Shown here piece by piece: positions 1 through 22,256 of a stretch of 64,000 nucleotides of DNA; position 1 is the stretch's first letter; every line of letters starts with the position of its first letter. The stretch is from NCBI GenBank assembly GCA_025462865.1, contig JAOAPI010000047.1, positions 1 through 64,000 of the forward strand. The letters run 5' to 3'. The position numbers were made by a program, and so were the translations under genes. The notes below the pieces were generated by a model. It ran no database searches. It was not told the origin of the DNA and worked only from the letters and a program-made list of their open reading frames with translations. Source of the DNA: Candidatus Sulfotelmatobacter sp. Its GTDB lineage: Bacteria > Acidobacteriota > Terriglobia > Terriglobales > Acidobacteriaceae.

Positions 1-1240
1 CCGGAATGGTTTGGATCGCATTCTTATCAAGCTTCAAATGCGAATAAACCATTTCGGGGGGAAGGCGTCGGATCCACTGGTTGAGAGAGACGTCCAAGAC
101 TTCGCTCGCTTTGAACAGCTCCAGAAATACCAGGTCAGTATCGCCAGTGTTTTCCACGTAATGACCAGCATTAAATGGAACGAAGCCAACGTCGTTGGTA
201 TTGAAGTCCATGGTACGTGCCGACCCAACCGGCATAAACACGGTCATTCGTCCCTTCCCCGCCATCCAGAACTGCCACTCAGAGGCATTGGGATGCCAAT
301 GAAGCTCGCGCATACCTCCGGGCTTGATGGTGTTCAGGGCAGCCGCAACATTCTTCGAGACAGGAAAGTTATGCGAGTCGACGATGCGTATTTCGCCCCC
401 GGTAGTTCGCTTGGTCGGCGCCATCGCTTCCATTTTGAAGGTGTACTGGATGGGAGACTGCACTTTCTGTCCGCCAACTGCGGCCTTGTCTTCCGCTAAT
501 GACTTCGGCAAGTCTGCGGGAAAAATGTAAAGAGAACCAGTCGGCAGATTGGTGAGAGCGCTCTCCGGCAGTCCAAAGTTCTTCGACAACACTTCAGGAG
601 GTGTATGCGCTACCCATTCCGAGATAAGCATTGTACCGTCTTCCGAAAACATACCTTGATCGAAGACCAGGAGGAACTCGCATCCATCTGGCCCCAGGCC
701 CTGGATGGAGTGAGGAAAGCCAGCGGGGAAATACCATAGATCGCCCTTGCTCACGTCGTCGATAAAGATCGTGCCATCAGGATTCAATAGCGTAACGCGG
801 GCATTTCCATAAAGCATGATGGCCCACTCATCGGCTGTATGCCAATGGAGTTCGCGAAAGCTGCCGGCCGTTAAGCGCATGTTGACGCCGGCCAGGTCTG
901 TTGAGGACGGCAATTCGCGCTGCGTCACCTGATGGGTCCAGCCGCCCTCTTGAACTCGCCTTTTCGTCAGATCGTAGGAGTACCAAATAGGACCGACATC
1001 CCCGAAATCCGTCGGCGGAGGCGTATTTGAGTTGGGATTTTGCGCCAGAAGTGGTTTATTCTCCTGTCCGGGGTTACTCGATGAATGGTCGCCTTCAGCC
1101 TTTTGCGCACCTTCCCGCGTTTGTGCGTGCGCACTTAATCCTGCAAATGCGGCCGCAGCCAAAGCAGCGGAGCCGATTCCAAGGACACTCCTTCTCGAAA
1201 CTCCATCCTGCATCATCTTGTCTTTCTTTTGATCACTCAT
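1..1240 (-). CDS. oxdC: Oxalate decarboxylase, bicupin, Tat-exported (3' end beyond window)
   Basis: I read this frame directly: it is open from an ATG at 1240 to the left edge (413 codons), so the C-terminus is missing. The N-terminus carries a twin-arginine signal (SRRSVLG followed by an Ala-rich stretch ending AHA), implying export. Two cupin domains follow. The first has the metal set HWH...E (RELHWHTADEW) and a later His in FPHSIQG; the second has RELHWHPNASEW and GHYVENTGD. This duplicated H-x-H-x(3-5)-E...H pattern with FPAGFPHSIQG is typical of Mn-dependent oxalate decarboxylases, which convert oxalate to formate and CO2. A GGGGAAAA purine tract lies before the ATG. It may be the last gene of a transcript starting near 1826. 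A bicupin of another specificity cannot be fully excluded because the end is cut. Confidence 0.88.
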   Translation of the reverse strand, partial: MSDQKKDKMMQDGVSRRSVLGIGSAALAAAAFAGLSAHAQTREGAQKAEGDHSSSNPGQENKPLLAQNPNSNTPPPTDFGDVGPIWYSYDLTKRRVQEGGWTHQVTQRELPSSTDLAGVNMRLTAGSFRELHWHTADEWAIMLYGNARVTLLNPDGTIFIDDVSKGDLWYFPAGFPHSIQGLGPDGCEFLLVFDQGMFSEDGTMLISEWVAHTPPEVLSKNFGLPESALTNLPTGSLYIFPADLPKSLAEDKAAVGGQKVQSPIQYTFKMEAMAPTKRTTGGEIRIVDSHNFPVSKNVAAALNTIKPGGMRELHWHPNASEWQFWMAGKGRMTVFMPVGSARTMDFNTNDVGFVPFNAGHYVENTGDTDLVFLELFKASEVLDVSLNQWIRRLPPEMVYSHLKLDKNAIQTIP

Positions 1241-1309
1241 CGCTTTTTTCCCCATCTACGGTGAATTCGATTCGATCCTGGTGCCTAAAGGCGACCGATT
1301 GCTCGGACG

Positions 1310-1429
1310 CTAGGCCGTTTTCTTCGGCTGCAAACAAAATTCGACAATTTTTCCAATTTGCACTGGAGGAACCAGTTTCAACGGTCTCCGGAAACCCATC
1401 GGTATGTAAAACTCGATCACTTTTGCCAC
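1310..1429 (-). CDS. Very small conserved-looking protein (39 aa)
   Basis: A GTG codon at 1429 has a good ribosome site (AGGAG, six bases upstream) and opens a 39-codon frame. The product contains two similar halves, KVIEFYIP near the start and GKIVEFC near the end, joined by a basic RRPLK segment, and ends in KKTA. I recall short acidobacterial hypothetical proteins with this VIEFY...GKVIEF pattern, but only from memory. It sits between the 71-aa gene and oxdC on the same strand, so it is probably co-transcribed. No function can be assigned. The frame is also open further upstream, so a longer form is possible. Confidence 0.5.
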   Translation of the reverse strand: MAKVIEFYIPMGFRRPLKLVPPVQIGKIVEFCLQPKKTA

Positions 1430-1545: not shown

Positions 1546-1761
1546 TCATCCACATAGTTCTCCCCTGAGCGTTGAGGGGGAAGAGGAATGCGCGCGTTCC
1601 AAATCTCTCAAGCGACGCTGCCCGTTCGCAAACATCGCTGAGGCCAATGCTTTCATGTCTCGATCCCCGGAATCGGCAGCCCTGATCAGTTCCTTGCCTG
1701 CGTCTTGCTGTCCGAACCTGCACCACATCACTCCGCAAAGAAACACATAGTTGCTGTCCAT
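1546..1761 (-). CDS. Small hypothetical protein (71 aa)
   Basis: ATG at 1761 is preceded by AAAAGGAGAACAGA, a strong ribosome site. The product starts MDSNYVFLCGVMWCRFG and continues as a probable alpha-helical stretch (GKELIRAADSGDRDMKALASAMF), resembling one HEAT-like helical pair. No family is recognised with certainty. The last residues (GELCG) look unnatural: the +1 frame reads GENYVDEIMRGL followed by a stop, which looks like a more natural C-terminus, so a one-base deletion near the C-rich run at about 1565-1575 is possible. A sigma-54-like promoter lies 75-90 bases upstream. Confidence 0.6.
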   Translation of the reverse strand: MDSNYVFLCGVMWCRFGQQDAGKELIRAADSGDRDMKALASAMFANGQRRLRDLERAHSSSPSTLRGELCG

Positions 1762-1835: not shown

Positions 1836-1851
1836 TGCAATCCAACTGCCA
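1836..1851 (-). promoter_or_regulatory. Sigma-54 type promoter (-24/-12)
   Basis: On the minus strand this reads TGGCAGTTGGATTGCA: GG at 1850-1849 and GC at 1838-1837, exactly 12 bases apart, matching TGGCAYR-N4-TTGCW at the core bases. Expected transcription start is near 1826, about 65 bases before the 71-aa gene and in front of the small genes and oxdC. The rest of 1762-2114 shows no convincing gene. Confidence 0.6.
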
Positions 1852-2114
1852 ACCCCAGCCGCTCTAAACCCCGCTCCCCTCGAACTTGTCTGCTGCCAGC
1901 GTCCACATATCGACACCCTCTCTGCCATCGCGCTCTCGTGTCGTCACAGCAAAGGGCAGGCACCCTGTGTGCGAGCGGGTTGCAGCCGACAGCTGAAAGA
2001 AAAATACGGTGATAAAGAATCGTGGGGATGGTGGGATTCGTTAAACCGGCATGGCGATCAGGTCGTACCTTGTAATCGCACCCATGTTTGCCTCGCCGTT
2101 TTCTAGATTAAGGT

Positions 2115-4384: not shown

Positions 4385-4414
4385 TACGATTCCCACCTTT
4401 CCACCCCGACTGAT

Positions 4415-5294: not shown

Positions 5295-5731
5295 AGAGCA
5301 TTTCACACCCTGACGGTTGCAGTGGACCAGACGCGGTATTGCTGCTTGCTCGTAGCCCCTGCGTTGCGGCATTTCTGGAACAGGCTCCAACAGCGGCTAC
5401 ACCAGGCGTTGAAGAAGCAAGTCGAAGTCTACGAAGCGCAGGCACGTCCGAGTATCCTTGCCGAAGTTGATCGCAATCAAATCGTCCAAGCCCCTGCGAT
5501 TGGCCGAGTTGGAGGACCAAATGGCGGCGCGGGCCGCTTTGGACTCAAAACCGACTACTCTAATCACACGGATGAAGAAGCTTGGTGTCGACCTTAAACA
5601 AGTCTCGCGACCCAAGGTGGACACCACACGACAGTTTCGACATCTGCTATTTCGACTGTACAGCACTCGCCACTCGACTTAAGTTCCTCTGAATAAACTC
5701 TTTGCGCAAAAGCGCGCATCCGCTCGGGGTT
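5295..5731 (+). other. Stretch without a confident gene
   Basis: Several overlapping open frames exist here on both strands, none with a good ribosome site and a recognisable product. One plus-strand frame ending at 5682 (text LAELEDQMAARAALDSKP) looks faintly protein-like and could be a gene remnant. Confidence 0.3.
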
Positions 5732-5747
5732 TGGCATCCCCCTTGCT
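5732..5747 (+). promoter_or_regulatory. Sigma-54 promoter (-24/-12), near-consensus
   Basis: TGGCATCCCCCTTGCT matches TGGCAYR-N4-TTGCW at nearly every conserved base, with GG at 5733-5734 and GC at 5745-5746. The transcription start would be near 5757, giving a leader of about 40 bases before ATG 5799. Confidence 0.75.
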
Positions 5748-5798
5748 TTAAACAATGTGTCCGGAAATAGAGAACATTTATTCAAGGGGATAATCGAA

Positions 5799-6275
5799 AT
5801 GAAAATCAATAAACGTTATATCGCAGTAGGTTTGATCATTGCTTTTTCGCTCTTCCTCGGGCTCGCCGCTCATGCAGACGAGTCTGACGAAGCAACCAAA
5901 ATCACTTTCAGCCAGCCGATCGAGATCCCGGGACAGGTTTTACCTGCCGGGACCTACCTGTTTAAGTTGGCCAGCGGGGATGATCTGAATGTCGTGCAGA
6001 TCTTCAATGTCGACAGGACCCACCTCTATGCAACCCTCGATACGGTTTCAACTGACCGTCCCGAGCCAACCGATCACACTGTGGTCGCATTAGCAGAACA
6101 GGGAACTGGTCAACCGGATGTCCTCGTGAAGTGGTTCTATCCTGGCCGCGAAACAGGGAATGAATTCGTATATTCCAAGCAGGAAGAAAAGGAACTATCT
6201 AGAGACAAGCAACAGATCGTCATGGCTGACCGCCCCACAGTGTCAAATTCGGATGCTGCCGCAGGTGGCAACTGA
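5799..6275 (+). CDS. Secreted hypothetical protein, relative of the 26.7-kb gene
   Basis: ATG 5799 follows AAGGGGATAATCGAA. The 158-residue product has a Sec signal peptide (basic start, hydrophobic core GLIIAFSLFLGLAA, cleavage after AHA). The mature part begins with a beta-type segment KITFSQPIEIPGQVLPAGTY followed by text on a polar ligand-like pattern and ends in a low-complexity NSDAAAGGN tail. The F-x-x-P...(M/L)PAG(S/T)Y pattern recurs in the gene at 26682-27110. I recall such proteins as common in acidobacteria but no function is known to me. A sigma-54 promoter upstream and a hairpin downstream suggest a single-gene unit. Confidence 0.75.
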   Translation: MKINKRYIAVGLIIAFSLFLGLAAHADESDEATKITFSQPIEIPGQVLPAGTYLFKLASGDDLNVVQIFNVDRTHLYATLDTVSTDRPEPTDHTVVALAEQGTGQPDVLVKWFYPGRETGNEFVYSKQEEKELSRDKQQIVMADRPTVSNSDAAAGGN

Positions 6276-6324: not shown

Positions 6325-6709
6325 TCGGGCGAAATATTTTGGATCGACGGAAGCCAAAAATCACTTGCCTGCACTTACATCATTTGGTGAATCGGCTGAT
6401 GCGTTTCGGATATTAAGACCGGTCTTGGACTTCCCCATCAGCACGCCGAGCAGATCCTTAATGCGTTCTTTGCCACTAAGCCGCAACCATTGGCTTCTTC
6501 GGTTCATCCAGTTCATTGTGGACTCGAAACGGCGACCACTTCTGGGTAGCGTGACTCTCCGCGTGGCGCGCGCTTTCGCGACAAACCGTCCGGCAAGGTC
6601 GAGGTCCATGAATTCCAGGTATTGATGCCTCCACCGTGTTGAGGCAAGATTAGAGGAGTTATACCAAGGTATGATTGCACCGCTGTTAACGGAAGGATAC
6701 TTTCCCATC

Positions 6710-7087
6710 ATGGGTACTCAGGCGAAGGCAAAACTGATCGCGATTGTCGACGACGATGAGTTGATGCGCAGCGCATTGCAGGGCATGCTGAAATCCGTCG
6801 GGTTGCCATCACTAGCATTTGCGTCAGCGGAAGAATTCCTGAAGTCCGGCCAGTACCAGCAGACTGCATGCCTGATTGCGGATATTCGCATGCCCGGAAT
6901 GTCTGGTCTGGAATTGCAGGCCAAACTGAACGCTGAGCGCTGCAGAATCCCGACTATCTTCATCACGGCCCACGGTGACACAAAAATGCGTATGCAGGCG
7001 CTAAGGGCAGGCGCTGTGGAATTCCTGGCCAAACCGTTTGATGATGAGGTCCTGCTCGAAAGCGTTCGAGCGGCTCTCGAGAGTTAA
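6710..7087 (+). CDS. Stand-alone response-regulator receiver (FixJ-like)
   Basis: The 125-residue product is one receiver domain: acidic pocket D14-D16, phospho-acceptor D58 (LIADIRMPGMSG), T86 (FITAHGD) and K108 (LAKPF). It stops straight after the receiver, so it has no output domain. Sequence style (FASAEEFL, MPGMSGLELQ, RAGAVEFLAKPF) is that of FixJ-family receivers. Start at ATG 6710; an upstream in-frame ATG at 6671 has a GAGGAG 13 bases before it and would add 13 residues. It is followed after 36 bases, in the same reading frame, by a sigma-54 activator without its own receiver, so it may act on that protein. No histidine kinase lies nearby. Confidence 0.85.
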   Translation: MGTQAKAKLIAIVDDDELMRSALQGMLKSVGLPSLAFASAEEFLKSGQYQQTACLIADIRMPGMSGLELQAKLNAERCRIPTIFITAHGDTKMRMQALRAGAVEFLAKPFDDEVLLESVRAALES

Positions 7088-7123
7088 GCCCGACAAAAGC
7101 GTGTGCGCGCCAGGAGGTTCTCT

Positions 7124-8176
7124 GTGGGAGCGTTCCAAAAACTCGGGACCGGCGATCAAGCATCGTATGAACGCAGATTCGAGCAAGTAATCGGCAATAG
7201 TCCCGCTCTTGAATCAGTACTGGAACAAGTCGAACGGGTTGCGCCTACCGATTCCACCGTTCTTATACAAGGTGAAACCGGCACCGGCAAGGAGCTGATT
7301 GCACACGCCATCCACAACCTCAGCTCACGGTGCGGGCATGGCTTCATAAGGTTAAATTGCGCTGCGATTCCCCTTGATCTTTTAGAGAGTGAACTATTTG
7401 GCCACGAAAAGGGTGCGTTCACCGGAGCCATCGCGCAAAAGGTTGGCCGTTTCGAACTAGCCGACAAAGGCACGCTTTTCCTGGACGAAGTAGGAGATAT
7501 TCCGCCAGCCTTACAACCGAAGTTGCTGCGCGTTCTACAAGAACAGGAGTTCGAGCGCCTGGGTGGCACACGCACTCATCAGGTAGACGTTCGGCTGGTG
7601 GCTGCCACAAATCGTAATCTGATGGAGATGGCGAACCGAAGTGAGTTTCGCACCGATCTTTACTACCGCCTCAATGTATTTCCGGTCCTGCTGCCGCCTT
7701 TGCGCGAACGTCGCGAGGACATTCCGGCCCTCGTAGCTCATTTTGTTGAGATTTATGGCCGCCGGATGAATCGCCAGATTCAACACATTCCGCCGGCAAC
7801 GATGTCCGCGCTAACTTCGTACCCGTGGCCAGGCAACATCCGTGAGCTTCAGAACCTGATTGAACGTGGCGTGATTCTCTCAAGAGATGGTGTGTTTCCC
7901 AATCCTCTGCAGACTGCGAGTGTTCCGGACGTCAGTGGTTCTCCCGCCCCAACTACTCTGCGGGACTTCGAACGCGTTCTGATTTTGCGCACGCTGGAAG
8001 CAGTCAACTGGGTGATCGGCGGTCCGAAAGGCGCAGCGGCCAAACTTGGATTGAAGCGCACTACACTTATCCACAAGATGCAGAAGCTGGGAATTTCTCG
8101 GCCTGATCCGCAACGCGTCGCGGATGTAATAGGACCGATACGGCAGGAGACTGATTCGCCGTCTCGATTTCAGTAA
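7124..8176 (+). CDS. Sigma-54-dependent activator, FhlA/NtrC-type AAA+ plus Fis HTH
   Basis: GTG at 7124 has AGGAGG six bases upstream, giving 350 residues. The AAA+ core starts at about residue 20: Walker A GETGTGKE (50-57), sigma-54 contact loop GAFTGA (97-102), Walker B LFLDEVGD (118-125), then DLYYRLNVF and WPGNIRELQNL. A C-terminal Fis-type helix-turn-helix (GAAAKLGLKRTTLIHKMQKLGI) binds DNA. There is no N-terminal receiver or GAF domain, so control must come from a partner, perhaps the lone receiver just upstream. The HTH text with GPKGAAAKLGLK resembles FhlA, the formate-responsive activator, and a formate dehydrogenase lies downstream. It probably drives the -24/-12 promoters seen around it; that link is inference. 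Confidence 0.9.
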   Translation: MGAFQKLGTGDQASYERRFEQVIGNSPALESVLEQVERVAPTDSTVLIQGETGTGKELIAHAIHNLSSRCGHGFIRLNCAAIPLDLLESELFGHEKGAFTGAIAQKVGRFELADKGTLFLDEVGDIPPALQPKLLRVLQEQEFERLGGTRTHQVDVRLVAATNRNLMEMANRSEFRTDLYYRLNVFPVLLPPLRERREDIPALVAHFVEIYGRRMNRQIQHIPPATMSALTSYPWPGNIRELQNLIERGVILSRDGVFPNPLQTASVPDVSGSPAPTTLRDFERVLILRTLEAVNWVIGGPKGAAAKLGLKRTTLIHKMQKLGISRPDPQRVADVIGPIRQETDSPSRFQ

Positions 8177-8224: not shown

Positions 8225-8482
8225 CCACACCTCGCCGGTTTCTGCCGCAGCGAACGTGCACAGCCAGTACGAATTTCTAAACGCTCAACTTCATTCCAAT
8301 GCTTAAGTTCATCCGACGCTCAAATTCCTCCTGTTAGGCATTTGTGGCAGGACGTAGTTTTCGCTGTCATGAATTTGGCCGCAGAGTGACAGGCCGACGG
8401 TATTGGGACAGCTGCCGTCCAGTTCGAGCCTTGATTCCTAAGCGAATAAGAGACTTGGCTTACTCGGTGCCAGTAATAAGTT

Positions 8483-8498
8483 TGGCATGCAGCTTGCT
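8483..8498 (+). promoter_or_regulatory. Sigma-54 promoter (-24/-12), near-consensus
   Basis: TGGCATGCAGCTTGCT fits TGGCAYR-N4-TTGCW at all conserved positions (GG 8484-8485, GC 8496-8497). Start of transcription would be near 8508, about 40 bases before ATG 8549. Confidence 0.78.
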
Positions 8499-8548: not shown

Positions 8549-8731
8549 ATGCTGATTGAAGAATCCAGCACGCTCTACGCAGCAATCCAGGCCCGGTTCC
8601 CTGACGGACCCGCGGAGCGCTTTGTGATTTCGTATACCTCCGAACAGGCATTGCGGGACCTGTTAGCCGCAGCGTCCATCGTGGCCAGCGGGTGCATTAC
8701 TCGTGAGCACGCCGAGGAGTTATGTCGGTGA
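8549..8731 (+). CDS. Small hypothetical protein (60 aa) under a sigma-54 promoter
   Basis: The product begins MLIEESSTLYAAIQARFP, contains ERFVISYTSEQALRDLLAAASIVASGCI and ends HAEELCR. It is soluble, mixed alpha/beta in character and acidic. The ribosome site is weak (GAG 12 bases upstream). No family is recognised. Its position 50 bases after a near-perfect -24/-12 element and beside the activator gene makes it a likely target of that activator. Confidence 0.55.
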   Translation: MLIEESSTLYAAIQARFPDGPAERFVISYTSEQALRDLLAAASIVASGCITREHAEELCR

Positions 8732-8951
8732 GAAACGCCTGCGGGTGTTGGGAAAGAACGAGAAACTTACGCGGAGGAATCGCTGTGCCGGCGCGTCCAT
8801 GTATGAAAAGAGAAGATCACGGGCTTTGACGCTGTTGGGTGCAATGCCGTTGCGTTGATGCAGTCGACAACCAGTAAATGAAACAGCCGCCGCTCCACTT
8901 TTGGAAGCGAAAATGCGTTCGGTATTTGTGACTTTTTTTCGCGAGGTGCAT

Positions 8952-9173
8952 ATGCAGTTCATGAGCAGGACTATAGTTGTTGGAAGTTCGGATGTGATAT
9001 CCGGCATTCTGAATTGGGTGTGCCCTGGGTGCGGCGGCAGAATGGGTGGACGCGGCAAAGAGTTCAAGTGCCAAGGCGAATGTCTGACGGATTGGCGTCT
9101 CCCTTGGCAGCGAATACTTTCGGCCGACCTCGATGCGCCATCAAAAAGGCCAATCAAACAACTTAGTTGGTGA
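8952..9173 (+). CDS. Small zinc-ribbon-like protein (73 aa)
   Basis: ATG 8952 follows GAGGTGCAT. The product contains CPGCGGRM and, after 12 residues, CQGEC, a C-x2-C...C-x3-C set that could hold one zinc ion. An N-terminal stretch RTIVVGSSDVISGILNW precedes it, and the tail is polar. No family is recognised. An ATG nine bases downstream and one 51 bases upstream are alternative starts. It lies between the 60-aa gene and the formate dehydrogenase and may be part of that transcript. Confidence 0.45.
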   Translation: MQFMSRTIVVGSSDVISGILNWVCPGCGGRMGGRGKEFKCQGECLTDWRLPWQRILSADLDAPSKRPIKQLSW

Positions 9174-12998: not shown

Positions 12999-13940
12999 TT
13001 ATCGAGTTATGTCTTGGCCCGGCCGCATCTCTGCTACCGCGCCGGAACTTGCGGGAAGCATTTTCAGGTTCAGTACGATTGTCGTCTCGTTTCCGGAAGC
13101 CGGTGTGCATACGGCTCCGCTGTAGTCGTCCCCGGCTGTAGCTGGCATATGACAGTTGTCATGGCGGGTGGTGGCGACCACAGTTCCGGTGCACGTGGCC
13201 CCATGGTAATCCTCGCCAACTGTGGACGGCATCTGACAGCGTTCATTCTGCACGACAGCCGGCCAATTCGTGTCTTGTATCGCATTTAACAGTTCAGGAA
13301 AATCCTCATGCCCCACGCGAGCGGATCCCGAAAGGTCGAGGGCTCTGTTTTGCCGTAGGGCAACCGAAGTCAACGGTCCCGACGAGAGTGCACTGCCCAA
13401 ATTTGGGAACAGAAACATGATCTCGCGAGTTGTAGTGTGAAGGACAGGGTCACCGTAAACCGGCCCTGCATAAGCGTCGTTCGACGTGAGGGTCACCGTG
13501 CGTTCCACGCGTGTCAATGTCAGATCCCCGATCACTTCCAACTGGCCGTCCCCTCGGTTCAAAATGCGTTTTGACCGGAAGGTCAGCAGGGTGTGATCGG
13601 TTCCGTCAGGATGGTAGCCGACTGGCAGGGCGCTGTCGGCACTAAGCGCGTGTGCCCACTGCTCATCCGCCGGGTGAATACTGAGTTCGAAGACGGAGTT
13701 TCGCAGATCATTTGTGTCCAGCTTCACTTTGCCGGTGATACGCGCCACACCCGTGTTTACTGAGTCTGGATTCGCGGTGGAGCCCTGAAAAAATCGCGCG
13801 GTGGAGGTAGTGGAGTCGAGAGACCATGAACCGCCATCGGCAAAGGCTCGCGGGGCGATGACCCCAAACATGACCAGGCTCAAGATCGCTAAAGTTCTCC
13901 TCCGTGCCAGTCGAACCATATGAATAGTGATCGATTTCAT
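12999..13940 (-). CDS. YceI-family exported protein with duplicated Cys tail
   Basis: ATG 13940 has AAGGAG 10 bases upstream. A signal peptide (RRRTLAILSLVMFG...AFA) is followed by a YceI lipocalin-like beta-barrel (SWSLDSTTSTARFF, NTGVARITGKVKLD, HTLLTFRSKRI, GDLTLTRVERTVTL), which in the family binds isoprenoid or amphiphilic ligands in the periplasm. After the barrel there are two near-identical 16-residue units, CQMPSTVGEDYHGATC and CHMPATAGDDYSGAVC, both fitting C-x-MP-x-T-x-G-x-DY-x-G-x2-C. This tail is not part of ordinary YceI proteins and could form two disulphide loops or a metal site. A sigma-54-type promoter lies upstream. Confidence 0.82.
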   Translation of the reverse strand: MKSITIHMVRLARRRTLAILSLVMFGVIAPRAFADGGSWSLDSTTSTARFFQGSTANPDSVNTGVARITGKVKLDTNDLRNSVFELSIHPADEQWAHALSADSALPVGYHPDGTDHTLLTFRSKRILNRGDGQLEVIGDLTLTRVERTVTLTSNDAYAGPVYGDPVLHTTTREIMFLFPNLGSALSSGPLTSVALRQNRALDLSGSARVGHEDFPELLNAIQDTNWPAVVQNERCQMPSTVGEDYHGATCTGTVVATTRHDNCHMPATAGDDYSGAVCTPASGNETTIVLNLKMLPASSGAVAEMRPGQDITR

Positions 13941-13985: not shown

Positions 13986-14001
13986 TGCACGACATGTGCC
14001 A
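13986..14001 (-). promoter_or_regulatory. Sigma-54 promoter (-24/-12) before the YceI gene
   Basis: Minus-strand TGGCACATGTCGTGCA has the full TGGCAC -24 box and GTGCA at -12, GG and GC 12 bases apart (14000-13999 and 13988-13987). The start would be near 13976, 36 bases before ATG 13940. Confidence 0.7.
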
Positions 14002-14244
14002 AACGGAATCAAGTGAAACCGCTCTGCATTCCAAGGGGATACGGCGTCCGGCGTGTGGCTAATGGGCTCGGGAGGACGAGATGGCGCTTCGATCCACTCA
14101 CATGTTAAAGACGCCGTGACCACAGGACGACAAGTGTCGGACCGCGGACAGTGTTTCCGCAAAATTGTTGAAATAACGGTCTCCCCGGTCTCATTTTCTC
14201 TGCAATCAACAGCTCATGCCTTCTTTTCCGCCCCGCCGGCACTT

Positions 14245-14260
14245 TGGCCAGTCCTTTGCT
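14245..14260 (+). promoter_or_regulatory. Possible sigma-54 promoter for the caa3-bc operon
   Basis: TGGCCAGTCCTTTGCT has GG 14246-14247 and GC 14258-14259 with a consensus TTTGCT. It is 144 bases before the coxB start, so the leader would be long. The rest of 13941-14403 shows no gene; a frame at 14053-14319 has no ribosome site and no recognisable product. Confidence 0.4.
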
Positions 14261-14403: not shown

Positions 14404-15453
14404 TTGCGATCACGTGGCTCAAACAACTGGCGCTTCGTTAGTAGGCAGATTTTCGTTTGGCTCTGCTGTGCAGCGGCAGCTTTTGCAGACCAGGCCCCTG
14501 CCTGGAGCCCGACGAATATCTTTGCTCCTGCTTCGACCCCAGCCAAATCGATCTTCGGACTGTCTCTATTTGTGCTCGCAGTGACGGGAGTCGTTTTCTT
14601 AGTTGTTTTCACTTTGTTGCTTTACTCAGTCGTGAAGTTCAGGAAACGAAGGAATGACGACGGCCGTGAGCCTCCCCAGGTGTACGGCAGCAACCAGGTG
14701 GAACTGGCGTGGACCATTATTCCCATACTCATCGTCGTTGCCTTGTTCATGGCGACGGCGAGAGTGATCGCAAGTGTGCAGAAGGATCCACGACTCGATA
14801 ACGCGATCGAGGTCGTGGCCATTGGCCATCAGTTCTGGTGGGAATACCGCTATCCGGGTTTGGGTGTCGTGACTGCGAATGAACTGCACGTGCCGGTGAG
14901 CGATGACAATCAGCCATCGCCCACGTTCATTAAGCTGCTCTCGGCGGATACGGACCACAGCTTCTGGGTCCCTCGCCTGGCTGGCAAGACTGACCTGATT
15001 CCCAATCATCCGAACAGCATGTGGATCGATCCCCATGAAGCGGGAGTTTATCTGGGCCAGTGCGCGCAGTATTGCGGGACACAGCACGCCAAGATGCTGC
15101 TGCGCGTCTACGTTCAGCAGCGTGGTGATTTCGATCGCTGGATTCAGGAGCAACGCCAGCCGGCAACCGTGAGTAGTGCAGCTTCCCAAGGCCAACGAAT
15201 ATTCGAAACCACTGCTTGCATCAACTGTCACACGGTGGAGGGGACCGTGGCCAGCGGCCGGTTCGGTCCAGACCTCACGCACCTGATGAGCCGCGACACC
15301 ATCGCAGCCGGTGCGGCGACGAACACGCCAGAAAATCTTCGGCAATGGATTTTAAACCCTGACGCCATCAAACCTGGCTCCCTGATGCCAGCAATGCAGT
15401 TGAGCGATCAGGATCTGAACGCGCTGACCGCTTACTTAGAGACGCTTCGTTAA
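14404..15453 (+). CDS. coxB: Cytochrome c oxidase subunit II with fused cytochrome c (caa3 type)
   Basis: TTG start with AAGGAG six bases upstream; 349 residues. A signal peptide/TM start, then two membrane helices (about 50-75 and 102-122), then a cupredoxin domain with the CuA set H185, C220, C224, H228 and M231 (GQCAQYCGTQHAKM). A C-terminal cytochrome c domain has CINCH (C272, C275, H276) and a likely Met ligand in GSLMPAM. It accepts electrons from periplasmic cytochrome c and passes them to subunit I. First gene of an eight-gene respiratory operon. Confidence 0.95.
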   Translation: MRSRGSNNWRFVSRQIFVWLCCAAAAFADQAPAWSPTNIFAPASTPAKSIFGLSLFVLAVTGVVFLVVFTLLLYSVVKFRKRRNDDGREPPQVYGSNQVELAWTIIPILIVVALFMATARVIASVQKDPRLDNAIEVVAIGHQFWWEYRYPGLGVVTANELHVPVSDDNQPSPTFIKLLSADTDHSFWVPRLAGKTDLIPNHPNSMWIDPHEAGVYLGQCAQYCGTQHAKMLLRVYVQQRGDFDRWIQEQRQPATVSSAASQGQRIFETTACINCHTVEGTVASGRFGPDLTHLMSRDTIAAGAATNTPENLRQWILNPDAIKPGSLMPAMQLSDQDLNALTAYLETLR

Positions 15454-15473
15454 TGCTATGAGGAGAACTTGCA

Positions 15474-17147
15474 ATGTCGACTGAGTCCATCGCATGGCCG
15501 AGTGCGAGCGCGGAATCTCGTTCGTTCGTCGACACGCTCCACGAGTGGGTTACGACGGTCGATCACAAGCGACTTGGCATTCTGTACATCATTTACGCTT
15601 TGGTGTTTCTCTTGATCGGCGGGATCGAAGCAGCCATTATCCGCATCCAGTTGATCCGTCCACACAACAATTTTGTTTCGCCCCAGGTCTTCAACCGGCT
15701 GTTCACCATGCATGGAACCACCATGATTTTCTTCGTGGTCATGCCTGTCTTGTTCGGATTTGCAAACTATCTGATTCCACTCATGATTGGTGCGCGGGAC
15801 ATGGCATTTCCGCGCCTGAATGCGTTCAGTTTCTGGATGACGGCTTTTGGCGGCCTGCTTCTCTATTTCAGCTTAGTGGGAGCCAACGGGCTTTATGGAG
15901 CGGGAAACGCTCCGGACGTTGGATGGTTCGCCTACGCGCCGTTGACATCGCGGACGTTTTCGGTCGGGCACAGCACTGACTTCTGGACTCTGGCGCTGCT
16001 GGTCTCTGGCTTTGGCAGTATCGGCACCGCGATCAACATCGTGGCAACAATTCTCTGCATGCGTTGCCAGGGCATGACGCTGGCCAAAATGCCATTGTTC
16101 GCGTGGCTCAATCTCGTGATGGCGGGCCTGGTGATTCTCGCAGTGAGTCCGCTGACAGCGGCGCAGATCATGCTGCTGGTCGATCGCTATCTAGGCGGAC
16201 ACTTCTTCGACACCCAGGCAGGAGGCTCCGCGGTGTTTTGGATGCACTTCTTCTGGATTTTCGGACATCCCGAAGTCTATGTACTTGTCCTGCCAGCCTT
16301 CGCCTTCGCTTCAGAAATCATCCCGGTATTCTCCCGCAAGCCGATCTTCGGTTACCCGGTAATGGTAGGAGCGACCGTCGCGATCGGATTCATCAGCATG
16401 AGCGTGTGGGCTCATCACATGTTTACAGTCGGGATGGGCGCAAACGTAAATACTTTTTTTGTGATCTCGACTATGGCGATTGCGGTTCCCACGGGCATCA
16501 AGATCTTCAACTGGCTCGCAACTATCTGGGGAGGAAAGATCGAGTTCAAGACACCGATGCTGTTCTGCATCGCTTTCCTCTTCCAATTCCTGATCGCAGG
16601 TCTCACCGGGGTGATGATGAGTGCCGCCCCATTTGACTGGCAGCTGGGAAGCTCGTATTTCGTGGTTGCTCATTTTCACTATGTAATCGTCGGCGGCATT
16701 CTCTTCACGCTTTTCGGAGCCTTTTACTACTGGTTCCCGAAAATGTCGGGGAGGATGTACAGCGAGACCCTCGGCAAACTCCATTTCTGGCTTTTCCTGA
16801 TTGGCTTCCACCTGACTTTCGACTTTATGCACATCCCGGGACTGCTGGGCATGCCGCGAAGAATCTACACTTACGAACCGGGACGCGGTTGGGACACATG
16901 GAACTTCATTGTGACCATCGGAGTTTTCTTCCAAGCTGCTGCGATTGTGGTCTTCTTGGGAAACTTGATCTGGTCTTACTTCCGCGGCAAAGCCGCCGGA
17001 AACGATCCGTGGGATGCGTGGACTCTTGAGTGGTCCACCAATTCGCCGCCGCCCGCATACAACTTCTACACCATCCCAAGCGTCCAGAGCCGCCGTCCGC
17101 TCTGGGACCTAAAGCATCCGGACGATCCGGATTGGAAGTACGAGTGA
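15474..17147 (+). CDS. coxA: Cytochrome c oxidase subunit I (A-type heme-copper oxidase)
   Basis: 557 residues with 12 or more membrane helices; AGGAG before ATG. Heme and copper ligands are visible: H80 (TMHGTTM), H265 in FGHPEVY with E267 and the cross-link Tyr269, H314-H315 (WAHHMFTVGM), and H400/H402 (VVAHFHYV). The Glu in GHPEVY is the A1-type D-channel mark. It reduces O2 to water and pumps protons in the inner membrane. Follows coxB after 20 bases. Confidence 0.96.
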   Translation: MSTESIAWPSASAESRSFVDTLHEWVTTVDHKRLGILYIIYALVFLLIGGIEAAIIRIQLIRPHNNFVSPQVFNRLFTMHGTTMIFFVVMPVLFGFANYLIPLMIGARDMAFPRLNAFSFWMTAFGGLLLYFSLVGANGLYGAGNAPDVGWFAYAPLTSRTFSVGHSTDFWTLALLVSGFGSIGTAINIVATILCMRCQGMTLAKMPLFAWLNLVMAGLVILAVSPLTAAQIMLLVDRYLGGHFFDTQAGGSAVFWMHFFWIFGHPEVYVLVLPAFAFASEIIPVFSRKPIFGYPVMVGATVAIGFISMSVWAHHMFTVGMGANVNTFFVISTMAIAVPTGIKIFNWLATIWGGKIEFKTPMLFCIAFLFQFLIAGLTGVMMSAAPFDWQLGSSYFVVAHFHYVIVGGILFTLFGAFYYWFPKMSGRMYSETLGKLHFWLFLIGFHLTFDFMHIPGLLGMPRRIYTYEPGRGWDTWNFIVTIGVFFQAAAIVVFLGNLIWSYFRGKAAGNDPWDAWTLEWSTNSPPPAYNFYTIPSVQSRRPLWDLKHPDDPDWKYE

Positions 17148-17160
17148 AGGAGCAAGCCTG

Positions 17161-17757
17161 ATGAGCACGACATCTTTCCCGCTAGCACCGACAGAACTCG
17201 AGTGGAAGCTTCCCCCACGCGGACGCATAGCAATGTTCGCTCTTATCGCGGCCGAGGCTGCGATCTTCACTATCTTTGTCGTAGCTTATCTCTTTTATAT
17301 CGGCAAGAGCTTGTCCGGGCCCATGCCCTCGGAAGTTCTCTCGCCACCTTTCCTTTACACCGTTTGCTTACTCTCCAGCAGCCTGACGATTCACTTTGCC
17401 GCGAGAAGCCTTCGAGTCGGTAACGTGCGCAGCTTTGGTGCATGGTGGCTTTCGACGATCAGCCTCGGCGCGATCTTCCTTTATGGAACGGCGTCGGAAT
17501 GGCACCGCCTCATTTATAAGGACGGCCTGACGATCACGACCAATTTGTTTGGAACCACCTACTACTCACTGGTCGGGTTGCACGGCTTCCACGTCGTCGT
17601 GGGTCTCTTAGCGATGACCACTGTGATGGTTTTCACAATCGTCGGTGCTATGAAGCAAGAGCATGCCGAACGCATCGATGTGTTGTCTCTCTATTGGCAC
17701 TTCGTGGATGGAGTTTGGATTGTGGTCTTCACCATTGTTTATGTCATTGGGCGCTGA
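17161..17757 (+). CDS. coxC: Cytochrome c oxidase subunit III
   Basis: 198 residues, five membrane helices, with AAGGAG upstream. Family marks include ...RGRIAMFALIAAEAAIFT, GTASEWHRLI, GLHGFHVVVGL and YWHFVDGVWIVVF. This short five-helix form is usual for bacterial caa3/aa3 oxidases. The next gene starts directly after its stop codon. Confidence 0.93.
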   Translation: MSTTSFPLAPTELEWKLPPRGRIAMFALIAAEAAIFTIFVVAYLFYIGKSLSGPMPSEVLSPPFLYTVCLLSSSLTIHFAARSLRVGNVRSFGAWWLSTISLGAIFLYGTASEWHRLIYKDGLTITTNLFGTTYYSLVGLHGFHVVVGLLAMTTVMVFTIVGAMKQEHAERIDVLSLYWHFVDGVWIVVFTIVYVIGR

Positions 17758-18624
17758 ATGGAAAACAACATGAGCATCGACGCACTCGCGCAACCTGACG
17801 AGCGGACAGAAACGATCGAAATGCCGGCGTCTAGCGCCTGGCCGATTATTCTCGCTTTCGGCCTGACTTTGGTTTTTGCGGGTCTCGTTACCAGTTCATC
17901 GGTGAGTCTTCTGGGAGCGATCCTGGCAGCAAGTGGGTGCATCGGGTGGTTCCGCGATGTGCTGCCGCGCGAGAAGCATGAATCGGTGTCCGCGATCGAG
18001 ATGACTCCGCCCGTCAGTACCAGTCGTCCACGAGTGGCGGTAGTCGAGTGGATGACTGAAGAACTGCACCGAGCGCGCTTGCCGCTGGAGGTCTACCCAA
18101 TCAGAGCCGGCGTCAAGGGTGGCATGGCAGGAAGCGTCGCGATGGCGGTTCTGGCGGTGATGTATGGAATCATCAGCAGGCGCGGTATGTGGTACGCAAT
18201 CAACGTGCTCGCCGCGGGGTTTTTCCCCGGCAGGCATCCGCTGGCGCAGATCGGGGCCTTTCAATGGGACTCTCTGCTGATCGCGAGTGTCCTCCACTTG
18301 CTCGTTTCCTTAAGCGTTGGACTTCTCTACGGAGCGACGCTACCGATGCTTCCGCGGCACCCGATAGTTCTTGGTGGCTTGGTCGCACCCATTTTGTGGT
18401 CGGGCTTAGTTCACAGCTTTATTGAACTCATCGATCCAACCCTTAACCAGCAGATCGACTGGTTGTGGTTCGTTTTTTCTCAGATCGGATTTGGGATTGT
18501 CGCTGGCATCGTGGTCTCTCGACAACAACGTGTACCGACCCGGCAGCATCTTCCGTTTGCGATCCGCGCGGGGTTTGAAGTGCTGGGAGGCATCCATGAG
18601 AAGGATGGGGGAAAATCCCGGTGA
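17758..18624 (+). CDS. Membrane protein of the oxidase operon, function unknown
   Basis: The ATG abuts the coxC stop. The 288-residue product starts with a subunit IV-like pair of helices (AWPIILAFGLTLVFAGLV and SVSLLGAILAASGCIGWF), then a cytosolic linker, then four more membrane helices (including LLIASVLHLLVSLSVGLLYGA and IGFGIVAGIVVS). It probably belongs to the oxidase complex or its assembly; I do not recognise the second half. An ATG 12 bases in (MSIDALAQ) is an alternative start. Confidence 0.8.
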   Translation: MENNMSIDALAQPDERTETIEMPASSAWPIILAFGLTLVFAGLVTSSSVSLLGAILAASGCIGWFRDVLPREKHESVSAIEMTPPVSTSRPRVAVVEWMTEELHRARLPLEVYPIRAGVKGGMAGSVAMAVLAVMYGIISRRGMWYAINVLAAGFFPGRHPLAQIGAFQWDSLLIASVLHLLVSLSVGLLYGATLPMLPRHPIVLGGLVAPILWSGLVHSFIELIDPTLNQQIDWLWFVFSQIGFGIVAGIVVSRQQRVPTRQHLPFAIRAGFEVLGGIHEKDGGKSR

Positions 18625-19364
18625 TCAACTGGCAAATCGTCGGTTCTGCGCTCGCAATGTTTGCCGTTACAGTGTGCGTCGCGTGCAGTAACTCGGCCGG
18701 CCGTCCTGCACAGGATTCCGCCGTTATTCCGCCTGATCACATTATGGATTTCAGTGTGCTGTACGCCCAGAACTGTGCAGGCTGCCATGGCGTGGAAGGC
18801 AGTGGCGGAGCAGCCATGTCGTTGGCAAATCCGACTTATCTCGCAATCGCTAACGATGCCGTGATTCGCCACACCGCCGCGAATGGAGTGCCAGGCACGC
18901 CCATGCCCGCCTTTGCGCAGAGTGCGGGCGGAATGCTCACCGACAAGCAGATCGATGCTCTTGTGCGAGGAATTCGATCCTGGGCGAAGCCCGACGCTTT
19001 ACGCGATGCCACCCCGCCGCCCTATGCGGCGCAGTCTGCCGGTGATTCACAACGTGGCGCCGATGCGTATCGAACATACTGTTCTTCGTGTCATGGAGCC
19101 GACGGCCGCGGAGGCATCAAGGCCAGTTCGATTGTGGATGGCTCATACCTTGCTCTGGTCAGCAACCAACAACTTCGAACCATCGTGATTGCAGGCCGGC
19201 CCGAGCTGGATGCACCGGACTGGCGTAACGACGTTGAGGGTCGACCCATCTCGCCGCAAGATATTTCCGATGTGGTGGCGTGGCTCTCGAGCCAACGTCC
19301 AAAGTTCCCTGGCCAGCCATATTCAACTGCCTCGACAAACGCGGCCACTGGAGGATCTCGATGA
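18621..19364 (+). CDS. Diheme cytochrome c, probable lipoprotein
   Basis: GTG start overlaps the previous stop. The 247-residue product has a hydrophobic start and a candidate lipobox ending at Cys22 (VCVAC). Two cytochrome c domains follow with CAGCH (C52, C55, H56) and CSSCH (C154, C157, H158), each with a GxGG-type loop and a Met region (TPMPAF in the first). Placed between oxidase and Rieske genes, it probably carries electrons from the bc part to the CuA subunit. Confidence 0.88.
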   Translation: MINWQIVGSALAMFAVTVCVACSNSAGRPAQDSAVIPPDHIMDFSVLYAQNCAGCHGVEGSGGAAMSLANPTYLAIANDAVIRHTAANGVPGTPMPAFAQSAGGMLTDKQIDALVRGIRSWAKPDALRDATPPPYAAQSAGDSQRGADAYRTYCSSCHGADGRGGIKASSIVDGSYLALVSNQQLRTIVIAGRPELDAPDWRNDVEGRPISPQDISDVVAWLSSQRPKFPGQPYSTASTNAATGGSR

Positions 19365-19906
19365 CTGCAGAGAATGGAATTTCCAGACGTGCAGCTCTTG
19401 TGAAACTGGGTATTTTTCTCAACGGCATCGTCGGAGCTGCTTTGGCCGTGCCGATCCTGCGTTATCTCCTTTCGCCCGTGACTCGCGAACGGAGGACAGG
19501 TTATGACTCGTGGCTCTTACTCGGCGGCCTGGACCAGTTTCCCGCTGGCCAGACTCGACTCGCTACCTACAAGAACCCCGTGGTCAATGCCTGGGACGGA
19601 GAGACCGGCGATATCGCTTGCTGGGTGCGAAATGTCGACGATCAAAAATTTCAGGTCTTTGCCATCAACTGCGCGCACCTTGGATGCCCCGTCCGCTGGT
19701 TCGCCCAGTCGAACCTCTTCATGTGCCCCTGCCATGGCGGCGCTTACTACCAGGACGGTTCGCGTGCCTCTGGCCCCCCTGAGCGGGGCTTGTTCCAATA
19801 CCGCTATAAGGTTGAAGGCGGAAAACTTCTCATCAAGGCTGGCGAGATGCCAACTCCTGGTCAGCCCGTTGCAAATAAGGCGGGAGGGAAGACAACTTGC
19901 GCCTGA
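19361..19906 (+). CDS. Rieske 2Fe-2S protein of a bc-type complex
   Basis: ATG 19361 (GGAGGATCTCG upstream) overlaps the previous stop by four bases. 181 residues: an N-terminal Tat-like segment (SRRAALVKLG) with one membrane anchor, then the Rieske fold with C104-A-H106-L-G-C109 and C122-P-C124-H125-G-G. It takes electrons from quinol within the cytochrome b/Rieske complex. The cytochrome b gene overlaps its end. Confidence 0.93.
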   Translation: MTAENGISRRAALVKLGIFLNGIVGAALAVPILRYLLSPVTRERRTGYDSWLLLGGLDQFPAGQTRLATYKNPVVNAWDGETGDIACWVRNVDDQKFQVFAINCAHLGCPVRWFAQSNLFMCPCHGGAYYQDGSRASGPPERGLFQYRYKVEGGKLLIKAGEMPTPGQPVANKAGGKTTCA

Positions 19907-21372
19907 TCCAAAAAGTCGGAGAGTGGTTGGATCTGCGTCTGCAGTTGGGCGCGCCGATTCGCGAAACTGCCGGGCATCCGGTTCCGCGCGAGACCGCGAG
20001 CTGGTTCTATGTTTTCGGCAGCGCCGCGCTGACATGTTTCATGTTCCAAATTGTTACCGGCATACTGCTTGCGCTGATCTATGTGCCTTCCGCGGGAGAA
20101 GCCTGGAACAGTCTCCAAACGCTCAATCACGGCGTTTCTTTGGGCTGGTTCATCCGCGCGCTGCATGGGTGGGGCTCGAACTTCATGGTCGCGATTGTTT
20201 TGATCCACATGGTGCAGGTCTTTCTCTTTGGAGCCTATAAGTTTCCCAGAGAACTGACGTGGATCGTTGGCGTGTTTCTTTTACTTGTGACGCTTGGAAT
20301 GGCATTTACCGGCCAAGTGTTGCGATTCGATCAGGATGCCTACTGGGGATTAGGCATCGGAGCATCGATCGCGAGCCGGGTTCCGATTATCGGACCGTGG
20401 GCTGTCAACTTGATGCTCGGCGGACCCATCATTGCTGGCGCTACCCTCTCACGATTCTTCGCGCTACATGTTTTTGTCATCCCGGGACTACTGATCGCTT
20501 TTGTCGGCGTGCATCTGCTGTTGGTGCTAAAACTGGGAATCAACGAGTGGCCGATGCCGGGACGCATCGTCCGGCGCGCCACGTACATGCAGGAATATCG
20601 CGAGCTAACCCACAAGCAGGGCATACCATTCGTGCCCGAGGCGGTGTGGAAGGACATCTTGTTCTCCGGTTTCATTCTTTTTGCAATTGCTGTTTGCGCG
20701 GTTCACTTTGGTCCCTTCGGTCCAAGCGGCCAACCGGACCCCACGATTATTCAGACCGCGCCGCGTCCCGACTTTTTCTTCTTGTGGCTGTATGCTCTGC
20801 TCTCTTTCCTGCCCCCGTCAGCCGAGACGCCCATCCTGCTGATTGGTCCGGCAGTCGGACTCATTGTCCTGTTGGTGCTTCCGTTTGTAGCAGGCGAAGG
20901 TGAGAAGAGCTGGAGGCGCAGGCCGATCGCAGTTCTCACGATTCTGCTGGTCGCCGTAGGCCTGGGCTCGCTGACTCATCTGGCTGAGCACACACCCTGG
21001 AGCCCGGTGATGGATGCCTGGAGCAGTCAGCCGATTCCGTCTGAGTTCCTGCATGGCAGAACGGCATTGGAGCGTCACGGCGCGCTCGTTTTCCAGGCCA
21101 AGCAATGTCATAACTGTCACTCGCTGGATGACAAAGGCGGTCAGCGTGGGCCGGCGCTCGACCGTGTTGCTCTGCGCCTGACCGAAGATCAGCTTATTCG
21201 CCAGGTGATTCAAGGCGGTGGAAATATGCCGGCCTATGGGAAAAATCTTAGTCCGGCGGAAACAACTGCACTGGTAGCATTCCTGGAAACCCTGCATCCG
21301 GCAAATCAGAAACCAGCTCGCAATGCTTCTCAAGCGGTGACGCTCGGCGCAAGCGAGGTCTCGCCGCGGTAA
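19897..21372 (+). CDS. Cytochrome b (b6 plus subunit IV type) fused to C-terminal cytochrome c
   Basis: TTG start with GGGAGGG upstream, overlapping the Rieske gene by 10 bases; 491 residues. Heme b ligands are H90/H104 and H191/H206. The second pair has 14 residues between, as in cytochrome b6 rather than mitochondrial b. A subunit IV-like part follows (PDPTIIQTAPRPDFFFLWLYALL; the quinone-site PEWY is replaced by PDFF). After the last helix a cytochrome c domain has CHNCH (C404, C407, H408) and Met444 (GGNMPAYG), replacing a separate cytochrome c1. This is the quinol-oxidising core that feeds the diheme cytochrome and oxidase. Confidence 0.92.
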   Translation: MRLIQKVGEWLDLRLQLGAPIRETAGHPVPRETASWFYVFGSAALTCFMFQIVTGILLALIYVPSAGEAWNSLQTLNHGVSLGWFIRALHGWGSNFMVAIVLIHMVQVFLFGAYKFPRELTWIVGVFLLLVTLGMAFTGQVLRFDQDAYWGLGIGASIASRVPIIGPWAVNLMLGGPIIAGATLSRFFALHVFVIPGLLIAFVGVHLLLVLKLGINEWPMPGRIVRRATYMQEYRELTHKQGIPFVPEAVWKDILFSGFILFAIAVCAVHFGPFGPSGQPDPTIIQTAPRPDFFFLWLYALLSFLPPSAETPILLIGPAVGLIVLLVLPFVAGEGEKSWRRRPIAVLTILLVAVGLGSLTHLAEHTPWSPVMDAWSSQPIPSEFLHGRTALERHGALVFQAKQCHNCHSLDDKGGQRGPALDRVALRLTEDQLIRQVIQGGGNMPAYGKNLSPAETTALVAFLETLHPANQKPARNASQAVTLGASEVSPR

Positions 21373-21380
21373 ACCCGGCC

Positions 21381-22256
21381 ATGTTCGAGTCTCATGCACA
21401 CACGCATTCGTGGTCGCTCGCCATCATCTGCGCGCTGGTGGTCACGGCATTGGTTTATTTACGCGGCTGGCTTTCTCTTCGCGACGCTTTCCCAAACCTG
21501 ATTCGCGGTTGGCGGCTTGCCACATTCATGAGCGGCCTCTTTCTAGTCTGGACTGCCGTCGCTTCTCCACTCGCCACCCTCGATCATCAGTCGCTCACAA
21601 TTCACATGATGAAGCACCTTCTGTTGATGACGGTCGCCGCTCCGCTACTCCTGGCGGGAGCGCCGGTGTTTCCGCTGGTGTGCGGGTTGCCGAAGGTATT
21701 CATTACGAGCCATCTTCCACTTGCCAGTCTGCTGGCACGGCGGTTCAAACGCAGTCCCACGCATCCTGTGTTGTGTTGGATTGCGGGCACGGTTACCGTA
21801 ATCGGATGGCATCTTCCCGTTGCGTTTCAGCTGGGCATGCGCTCTCACTGGATGCACAGCTTGGAGGATATATCTTTTCTGATGGCTGGCCTATTGTTCT
21901 GGTGGCCTATCGTGTGGTCTTCGCCGAACGCGAAGAGGTCGCCGCAGTGGTCCATGGCTTTTTATCTCTTTCTCGCCACGCTGCCTTGTGACATTCTTTC
22001 TGCGTTCTTCGTATTTTCGAACCGGCTAATCTACCCCTTCTATCTATCTACACCTCGGCTATTCAGCATGCGGCCCCTTGCAGAGCAGGAATGTGCAGGC
22101 GCGCTGATGTGGGTTTGGGTGACGTTCGCATACGTGATTCCTGCCGTTGCGATCACCCTGCAGATTCTCTCCCCTCGCGACATACGATCGCAGGAATCAA
22201 TCCAAGCAGTGCCGACAAGAGTAGCAGGTGGCTCTCTGAACGAGGCGGAGTGTTAG
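21381..22256 (+). CDS. ctaG: CtaG-type cytochrome c oxidase assembly protein (caa3_CtaG)
   Basis: 291 residues, about seven membrane helices. Family marks include TIHMMKHLLLMTVAAPLLLAGAP, a helix with GWHLP, and MHSLEDISFLMAGLLFWWPIV, with conserved His residues thought to help copper insertion. Last gene of the respiratory operon. This is the Bacillus-type CtaG, not the Cox11 family. Confidence 0.9.
   Translation: MFESHAHTHSWSLAIICALVVTALVYLRGWLSLRDAFPNLIRGWRLATFMSGLFLVWTAVASPLATLDHQSLTIHMMKHLLLMTVAAPLLLAGAPVFPLVCGLPKVFITSHLPLASLLARRFKRSPTHPVLCWIAGTVTVIGWHLPVAFQLGMRSHWMHSLEDISFLMAGLLFWWPIVWSSPNAKRSPQWSMAFYLFLATLPCDILSAFFVFSNRLIYPFYLSTPRLFSMRPLAEQECAGALMWVWVTFAYVIPAVAITLQILSPRDIRSQESIQAVPTRVAGGSLNEAEC

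Follow-up and report, generated by a model that had tools for sequence, protein, structure and literature searches.

Plants and fungi produce large amounts of oxalate, whose sinks in soil are poorly known. Among described systems that resemble the locus reported here, the E. coli regulator FhlA has formate dehydrogenase (FDH) as a target, and MncA (Sll1358), a manganese cupin of cyanobacteria, is exported by the twin-arginine translocation (Tat) pathway. According to the available text of PMC8808070, ForCE of B. subtilis passes electrons from formate to menaquinone, forCE1 belongs to the SigB stress regulon and forCE2 is down-regulated by ResED; the same text places Acidobacteria among the sequences with CQ and RGH motifs, the majority of them beside a DUF1641 gene. 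Acidobacteria are also named, from gene hits only, as possible additional oxalotrophs in the available text of PMC10192776. Here we analyzed a 64-kb window of DNA (C19:1-64000, contig JAOAPI010000047.1) from the genome of Candidatus Sulfotelmatobacter sp. (G000; 6.08 Mb, 189 contigs). The module under study occupies its first 22 kb, and the full 64 kb are meant only where stated. The module contains genes for an oxalate decarboxylase (oxdC), a formate dehydrogenase (forCE), a bc-caa3 respiratory operon, a membrane protein and a sigma-54 activator with a separate receiver.

We propose, with a probability of roughly 0.6, that oxdC, forCE and the bc-caa3 operon form a sigma-54-controlled oxalate-to-oxygen module under a shared activator. 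An earlier note on this DNA had joined these genes into one oxalate-to-formate-to-respiration pathway. That reading is partly supported, and better so than its author could know: linkages, the arrangement in a congener and conserved sigma-54-like sites speak for it, and its FhlA-type sensing and YaaH label are withdrawn.

Genes of the module and their linkage in relatives

All named genes are open frames at the positions claimed for them, as confirmed by translations of the open reading frames (ORFs) and by Pfam and NCBIfam profile matches (Table 1). The oxdC product exceeds the curated threshold of TIGR03404 (493.5 bits, cut-off 254.2), and its nearest solved relatives are structures of B. 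subtilis OxdC (398 bits). It possesses both metal-site motifs (RELHWH at 134 and 316) and a lid glutamate (SED at 204; SEDGT here, SENST in B. subtilis), corresponding to what we take to be Glu162 of the B. subtilis enzyme. By family membership it is an oxalate decarboxylase, and its Tat-type signal (SRRSVLG...AHA) fits the proposed export; Tat-like signals occur in 15 of the 18 OxdC copies examined.

The ForC sequence scores 843 bits against TIGR01591 (cut-off 666), and among solved structures it is closest to B. subtilis YjgC (8rqz, 1472.9 bits over residues 4-975). Profile matches describe an FdhA-type Mo/W enzyme with a NuoG-like iron-sulfur N-terminus. Its active site carries CQ in place of CH (DNCSRYCQSP at 383) and RGH (PLRGHNN at 581), the motifs being defined as in the available text of PMC8808070, and a DUF1641 gene (forE) adjoins forC in most relatives listed. 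The FDH and DUF1641 partner of the earlier note are thus present, but the enzyme should be of the ForCE type, with a menaquinone-linked acceptor predicted, rather than a generic cytoplasmic one. Because a ForCE-type enzyme would pass electrons straight to menaquinone, its connection to the bc-caa3 chain would be free of NADH and more direct than first proposed. The bc-caa3 operon is complete, as had been claimed: cox2 with a cytochrome c domain, cox1, cox3, a transmembrane protein, cytochrome c (two matched stretches), the Rieske protein, cytochrome b with a C-terminal cytochrome c, and ctaG follow each other in one operon.

The gene order is not unique to this strain; on the refuting condition set by the earlier note, a private gene order, the outcome favors the module. 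The congener G385 keeps oxdC, the regulator, forCE and bc-caa3 in the order of the window, inside a contig of 695,562 bases. Partial arrangements were found in G419 (L142), with a further cluster of membrane protein and oxdC followed at some distance by forE-forC; in G314/L053 (bc-caa3, membrane protein, forCE, activator, receiver); in G058/L151 (bc-caa3, forCE); and in G356, which has oxdC beside a bc-caa3 operon and is not among the ForC-positive genomes. ForC is present in 74 of 399 sampled genomes of the class, OxdC in 89 and both in 36 (odds ratio 4.9, p 1.8e-8); counted by genus, co-occurrence is 11/137 (p 2e-4; the overlap of 11 genera was counted by hand). The ForC copies are lower bounds, two candidates per genome having been scored, so that the third forC of G419 (L142) was missed.

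Physical linkage also exceeds expectation, in all cases with genomes taken as independent. OxdC and ForC lie on one contig within 20 kb of each other in 10 of the 36 genomes that have both (0.52 expected) and within 10 kb in five (0.26 expected). Among 17 close copies of the activator in 76 genomes, a distance of at most 20 kb separates seven from forC (0.21 expected) and four from cox1 (0.18 expected); the first count becomes 6/16 without a stretch common to two metagenome-assembled genomes. This stretch is the 6 kb that G017:C101 and L053/G314:C369 have in common at 96%, counted once where stated. Finally, 4 of 54 genomes have cox1 no more than 20 kb from forC (0.55 expected, p 0.002).

These counts support the gene set as more than a chance neighborhood. 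An assembly artifact or an accidental meeting of unrelated genes might be suspected from the 189-contig assembly and from the start of the window at a contig end within oxdC, where the frame lacks a stop codon. A second, partial OxdC copy (95% identical) stands at the end of contig C68 (G000:C68:34895-35668, L171), and since both copies are at contig ends, the assembly evidently broke in a repeated gene. The same arrangement within the long contig of G385, together with linkages and promoter-like sites in excess of chance, makes this explanation highly improbable.

Sigma-54-like promoters and the activator

Sites were scored out of 13 against YTGGCACG-N4-TTGCW, which we take to be the sigma-54 consensus, with GG and GC fixed. 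The 3,748 bp of intergenic DNA in the module, among which the oxdC leader and its pair of small ORFs are counted, contain five sites of at least 11/13, where 0.19 are expected (dinucleotide shuffles; 0/300 reach five), and the 18,481 bp of coding DNA contain none. Each of the five precedes one gene or unit: oxdC, the regulator unit, the small ORF ahead of forC, cox2 and the YceI-like gene. The promoter signatures seen earlier are therefore more frequent in intergenic DNA than chance would give. In the whole genome, six exact TTGGCAYNNNNNTTGCW sites are among the matches listed, two of them in the module; with one mismatch there are 112 sites versus 81 in the reversed control, a mild excess.

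Several of these sites are conserved. Their G385 counterparts score 11 (oxdC), 10 (regulator unit), 12 (small ORF before forC), 12 (cox2) and 12 (YceI-like gene), and the 17-bp oxdC site is identical in L021 though its OxdC is only 70% identical. The cox2 element aligns in the window, G385, G000:C171 and G328, and reaches 10/13 at a similar distance in the latter two. For the distal forC site (8482), no counterpart was found in G017 or G003. At loci with at least 75% ForC identity, a site within 150 bp of forC was found in 10 of 25 (0.44 expected from mononucleotide shuffles; 9/25 without L053), versus 1 of 64 loci at 60-75% identity (0.79 expected). These counts leave out L060 and L078, duplicates of L151 and L101, and loci in which forC is preceded by fewer than 120 bp of sequence. 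The L053 "site" was discounted, as it falls within coding sequence at the end of the membrane-protein gene. An activator gene is present within 10 kb at 7 of 11 loci with a forC-proximal site versus 2 of 78 without one, or at 6/10 versus 3/79 with L053 discounted (p 2.7e-5). Co-regulation of the module genes, as predicted from these sites, thus gains support.

Small conserved ORFs (1310-1429 and 1546-1761 on the minus strand, 8549-8731 on the plus strand) are located directly downstream of sigma-54-like sites. In L221 (G434:C549), where forC is split over two frames and followed by forE and an OFA-type gene of the major facilitator superfamily (MFS; 67%), a protein similar by eye to that of the 8549 ORF is encoded just after an 11/13 site (L221:3387-3830, minus strand).

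The cox2 sites bear on a different explanation, in which the locus is an acid-stress or detoxification module: exported OxdC uses protons and removes oxalate, ForCE merely clears formate, and the neighboring respiratory genes are incidental. The available text of PMC8254039 describes B. subtilis OxdC as a low-pH stress enzyme, forCE1 is in the SigB stress regulon (available text of PMC8808070), and the caa3 operon is elsewhere in most ForC genomes. However, cox2 is preceded by sigma-54-like sites in the window and G385 and by weaker ones in two further operons, and the activator stands beside cox1 in 4/17 cases, which leaves this explanation quite unlikely.

The candidate regulator is a two-gene system. 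The activator contains an AAA+ domain (PF00158, 242 bits) with GAFTGA in its translation and a Fis-type helix-turn-helix (HTH) domain (PF02954, 30.7 bits). FhlA is the best NCBIfam match of this ATPase/HTH part, at 425.9 bits against a cut-off of 830 and over model positions 374-688 only. The resemblance and the lone receiver of the earlier note therefore stand, but the formate sensor of FhlA is missing, and FhlA-type formate sensing was rejected on this ground; input through a phosphorylated receiver is more likely. In the close activator loci fetched, the AAA+/HTH gene again has the receiver gene as its neighbor, and RpoN is encoded once in G000, by a single PF04552 match on the same contig (C19:84076-84549).

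A GTGTCG or CGACAC half-site, a candidate enhancer element, occurs 50-160 bp upstream of four of five module sites (oxdC, regulator unit, forC-proximal and cox2) versus 3 of 40 other genome sites, the first 40 listed outside contig C19, in a partly circular comparison, as the half-site was discovered in the regions where it was counted. None was found in this interval upstream of the distal forC site. At forC sites of other loci, which had not been used for discovery, the half-site is present in 3 of 6 (p 0.02; 3/5 without L053).

Candidate formate transport and the proposed route

The membrane protein had been described as a YaaH-like permease. Its frame exists, and its conserved start is near 4695 rather than 4611, most homologs listed having about 199 amino acids (aa) and covering 88% of the longer frame. 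With 2,187 homologs at an E-value of 0.001, it has no match to Pfam, NCBIfam or PDB sequences, and no Pfam domain was found in the 120 homolog matches listed. PF01184 (YaaH/SatP) gave no match at an E-value of 10, for this protein or anywhere in G000, and hhalign against the YaaH/SatP profile returned 0.046, with reversed controls at 0.07 and 0.12. The YaaH label was dropped for want of significant support in any of these comparisons. The likeness to the acetate-succinate permeases SatP/YaaH (AceTr, PF01184) is one of size, hydrophobicity and colinear short motifs in a non-significant profile alignment; the protein differs from them in lacking any family match and in a profile score no better than weak controls.

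Its genomic context is more informative. Eight of the nine contexts seen place oxdC or an FDH gene no more than 10 kb away (the window, G017:C121, two places in G419, L025, L053, L021 and G439; G335 is the exception), which makes a role as a carboxylate transporter likely by association; the L053 frame contains a stop codon. In G439 (L219, G439:C272:9000-20684), one row on one strand comprises the membrane protein, a UGA-containing FDH-N alpha subunit, an FDH beta subunit, a membrane protein without NCBIfam match and oxdC. This FDH-N, with its in-frame UGA and beta subunit, is non-orthologous to ForC, and its genes have a 12/13 sigma-54-like site upstream.

Other loci have a different candidate carrier: 27 of 80 ForC loci contain an OFA-type MFS gene, and none of these 27 has oxdC within the flank examined. 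The sole OFA-type copy classified, that of L146, which follows oxdC, scores over the SfMCT cut-off and that of NF049980, "L-lactate MFS transporter", and below the oxalate:formate antiporter cut-offs. These carriers, and the 10/17 close activator copies away from forC, would fit a respiratory or small-acid regulon that responds, for example, to external formate or lactate or to a redox signal and targets forCE and bc-caa3, with oxdC joined only in some strains and oxalate not the main substrate. We consider this rather unlikely in view of the excess linkage and co-occurrence of OxdC and ForC, the sigma-54-like site before oxdC, which G000, G017 and L021 share without a change, and the different FDH beside oxdC in G439.

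In the oxalate-to-oxygen route that we favor, the two-gene activator, a separate receiver and an AAA+/HTH protein, would act from the GTGTCG sites to activate the sigma-54 promoters that precede oxdC, the regulator unit, forCE and the bc-caa3 operon, presumably upon induction by oxalate or formate. Tat-exported OxdC would convert oxalate to formate and CO2 outside the cytoplasm. Formate would enter through the unnamed membrane protein here and through an OFA/SfMCT-type carrier in many relatives. ForCE would then oxidize it with menaquinone as acceptor, and menaquinol would be reoxidized by the bc complex and the caa3 oxidase.

Several observations weigh against this route. Of the 36 genomes that have both OxdC and ForC, 26 do not have them within 20 kb of each other, and oxdC appears in the examined flank of only 6 of 80 ForC loci, many of which are cut by contig ends. 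ForC occurs in 5 of 45 congeners; the membrane protein is rare (4/399 class genomes, 3/45 congeners) and absent from G385; and two of the only four genomes with cox1 near forC are sisters. The cox2 upstream regions of G017:C78, G356 and G058 have no site of at least 10/13, the GTGTCG/CGACAC 6-mer is missing at G385 oxdC, and the 22 kb yielded no kinase for the lone receiver. When the motif is counted more loosely across all 64 kb, the excess is weak: six matches at up to one mismatch, with 2.27 expected and 6/100 shuffles reaching six. The assumed independence of genomes and the circularity of the half-site count pull in the same direction.

It is also possible, and we put it forward tentatively, that the locus is a complete, dedicated oxalate-respiration regulon, in which a split two-component sigma-54 activator on GTGTCG enhancers drives exported OxdC, a new family of formate (or oxalate) permeases, menaquinone-linked ForCE and a bc-caa3 supercomplex of its own, all joined in a single energy-conserving chain, the FDH and transporter being replaced in certain relatives by unrelated ones (FDH-N in G439, an OFA-type carrier elsewhere).

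Neighboring features and comparison with known systems

Next to the oxdC unit, a Tat-signal protein (2115-3098, minus strand) is apparently broken by frame changes into overlapping ORFs (2115-2477, 2474-2926 and 2562-3098), the pieces of which have no Pfam match. Farther along the window, a capsule or exopolysaccharide gene cluster (Wzi, Wzz, sugar transferase, polysaccharide export, flippase) occupies 27500-48100, and GC skew is strongly positive (0.24-0.35) over about 8 kb at 50000-58000.

Table 1. Positions of genes, small ORFs and candidate regulatory sites in the module
Feature	Position	Strand	Basis or conservation
oxdC, bicupin oxalate decarboxylase with Tat-type signal	2..1255	-	TIGR03404, B. 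subtilis OxdC alignment, motifs; 3' end cut by contig end
Small ORF, 39 aa, GTG start, between promoter and oxdC	1310..1429	-	Translation; conserved across a three-genome DNA alignment
Small ORF, 71 aa, first gene past oxdC-side sigma-54 site	1546..1761	-	Translation; kept in window, G385, G017
Sigma-54-like site TTGGCAGTTGGATTGCA, 11/13, oxdC unit	1836..1852	-	Identical in G017 and L021; one change in G385
Putative activator site, CGACAC and GTGTCG half-sites	1911..1943	.	Upstream of oxdC unit
Conserved membrane protein ("YaaH-like" permease of the earlier note), 199 aa	4695..5294	+	Homolog lengths, genomic context; no Pfam/NCBIfam family
Putative activator half-site GTGTCG, upstream of regulator unit	5585..5590	.	
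Sigma-54-like site TTGGCATCCCCCTTGCT, 11/13, regulator unit	5731..5747	+	G385 counterpart 10/13
Small protein, signal-like N-terminus, weak DUF2911 match below cut-off	5757..6275	+	G385 homolog 82%
Stand-alone receiver	6671..7087	+	Closest model is receiver part of FixJ
Sigma-54 activator, AAA+ (GAFTGA) and Fis-type HTH, no N-terminal sensor domain	7103..8176	+	PF00158, PF02954
Sigma-54-like site TTGGCATGCAGCTTGCT, 12/13, 51 bp before 60-aa ORF upstream of forC	8482..8498	+	Present in L021; altered form in G385
Small ORF, 60 aa, downstream of 8482 sigma-54-like site	8549..8731	+	Translation; kept in window, G385, L021
Small ORF, weak zinc-ribbon match	8901..9173	+	Kept upstream of forC in close relatives
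Putative activator site, inverted repeat CGACAC-GGCA-GTGTCG	9258..9273	.	
forC-proximal sigma-54-like site CTGGAGCTGAACTTGCT, 10/13, 40 bp before forC	9388..9404	+	Aligned block in 5 sequences, 4 pass 10/13
forC, formate dehydrogenase catalytic subunit, NuoG-like Fe-S N-terminus	9428..12391	+	TIGR01591, YjgC match, motifs
forE, DUF1641 partner subunit	12407..12892	+	PF07849 23.4 bits, cut-off 21
YceI-like exported protein, divergent from cox2	12999..13940	-	Match just below Pfam cut-off
Sigma-54-like site TTGGCACATGTCGTGCA, 11/13, towards YceI-like gene	13986..14002	-	G385 counterpart 12/13
GTGTCG half-site in CGACAAGTGTCG, between divergent sites	14134..14139	.	Kept in G385
Sigma-54-like site TTGGCCAGTCCTTTGCT, 11/13, 160 bp upstream of cox2	14244..14260	+	G385 counterpart 12/13
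bc-caa3 operon	14404..22256	+	COX/Rieske/cytochrome b profile matches

This linked and apparently co-regulated set offers a concrete, testable oxalate-to-oxygen route in a major soil group and a candidate physiological setting for ForCE. It also offers a candidate carboxylate permease family, as yet nameless, and a sigma-54 regulon with predicted enhancer sites.

Among known regulators, the activator resembles FhlA of the E. coli formate regulon in its ATPase/HTH part and in the predicted use of sigma-54 promoters, with an FDH among the predicted targets; it differs in the missing N-terminal sensor, in its separate receiver and in a score far below the FhlA cut-off. The window OxdC is related to the bicupin MncA (2vqa, 239 bits), but is nearer to Bacillus OxdC. 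The FDH is like B. subtilis ForCE (YjgCD, YrhED) in near-full-length ForC similarity, the CQ and RGH motifs and the neighboring DUF1641 partner, whereas the neighbors of forCE in the window include oxdC, a sigma-54 activator and a bc-caa3 operon. No report of a link between oxdC and forCE, or of either with sigma-54, was found in a search of the open-license literature. The closest described pathway is Type V oxalotrophy, the single-step OxdC route, in which OxdC likewise turns oxalate into formate; here the enzyme is predicted to be exported, and is linked and apparently co-regulated with a quinone-linked FDH, a coupling that the available text of PMC10192776 does not describe.

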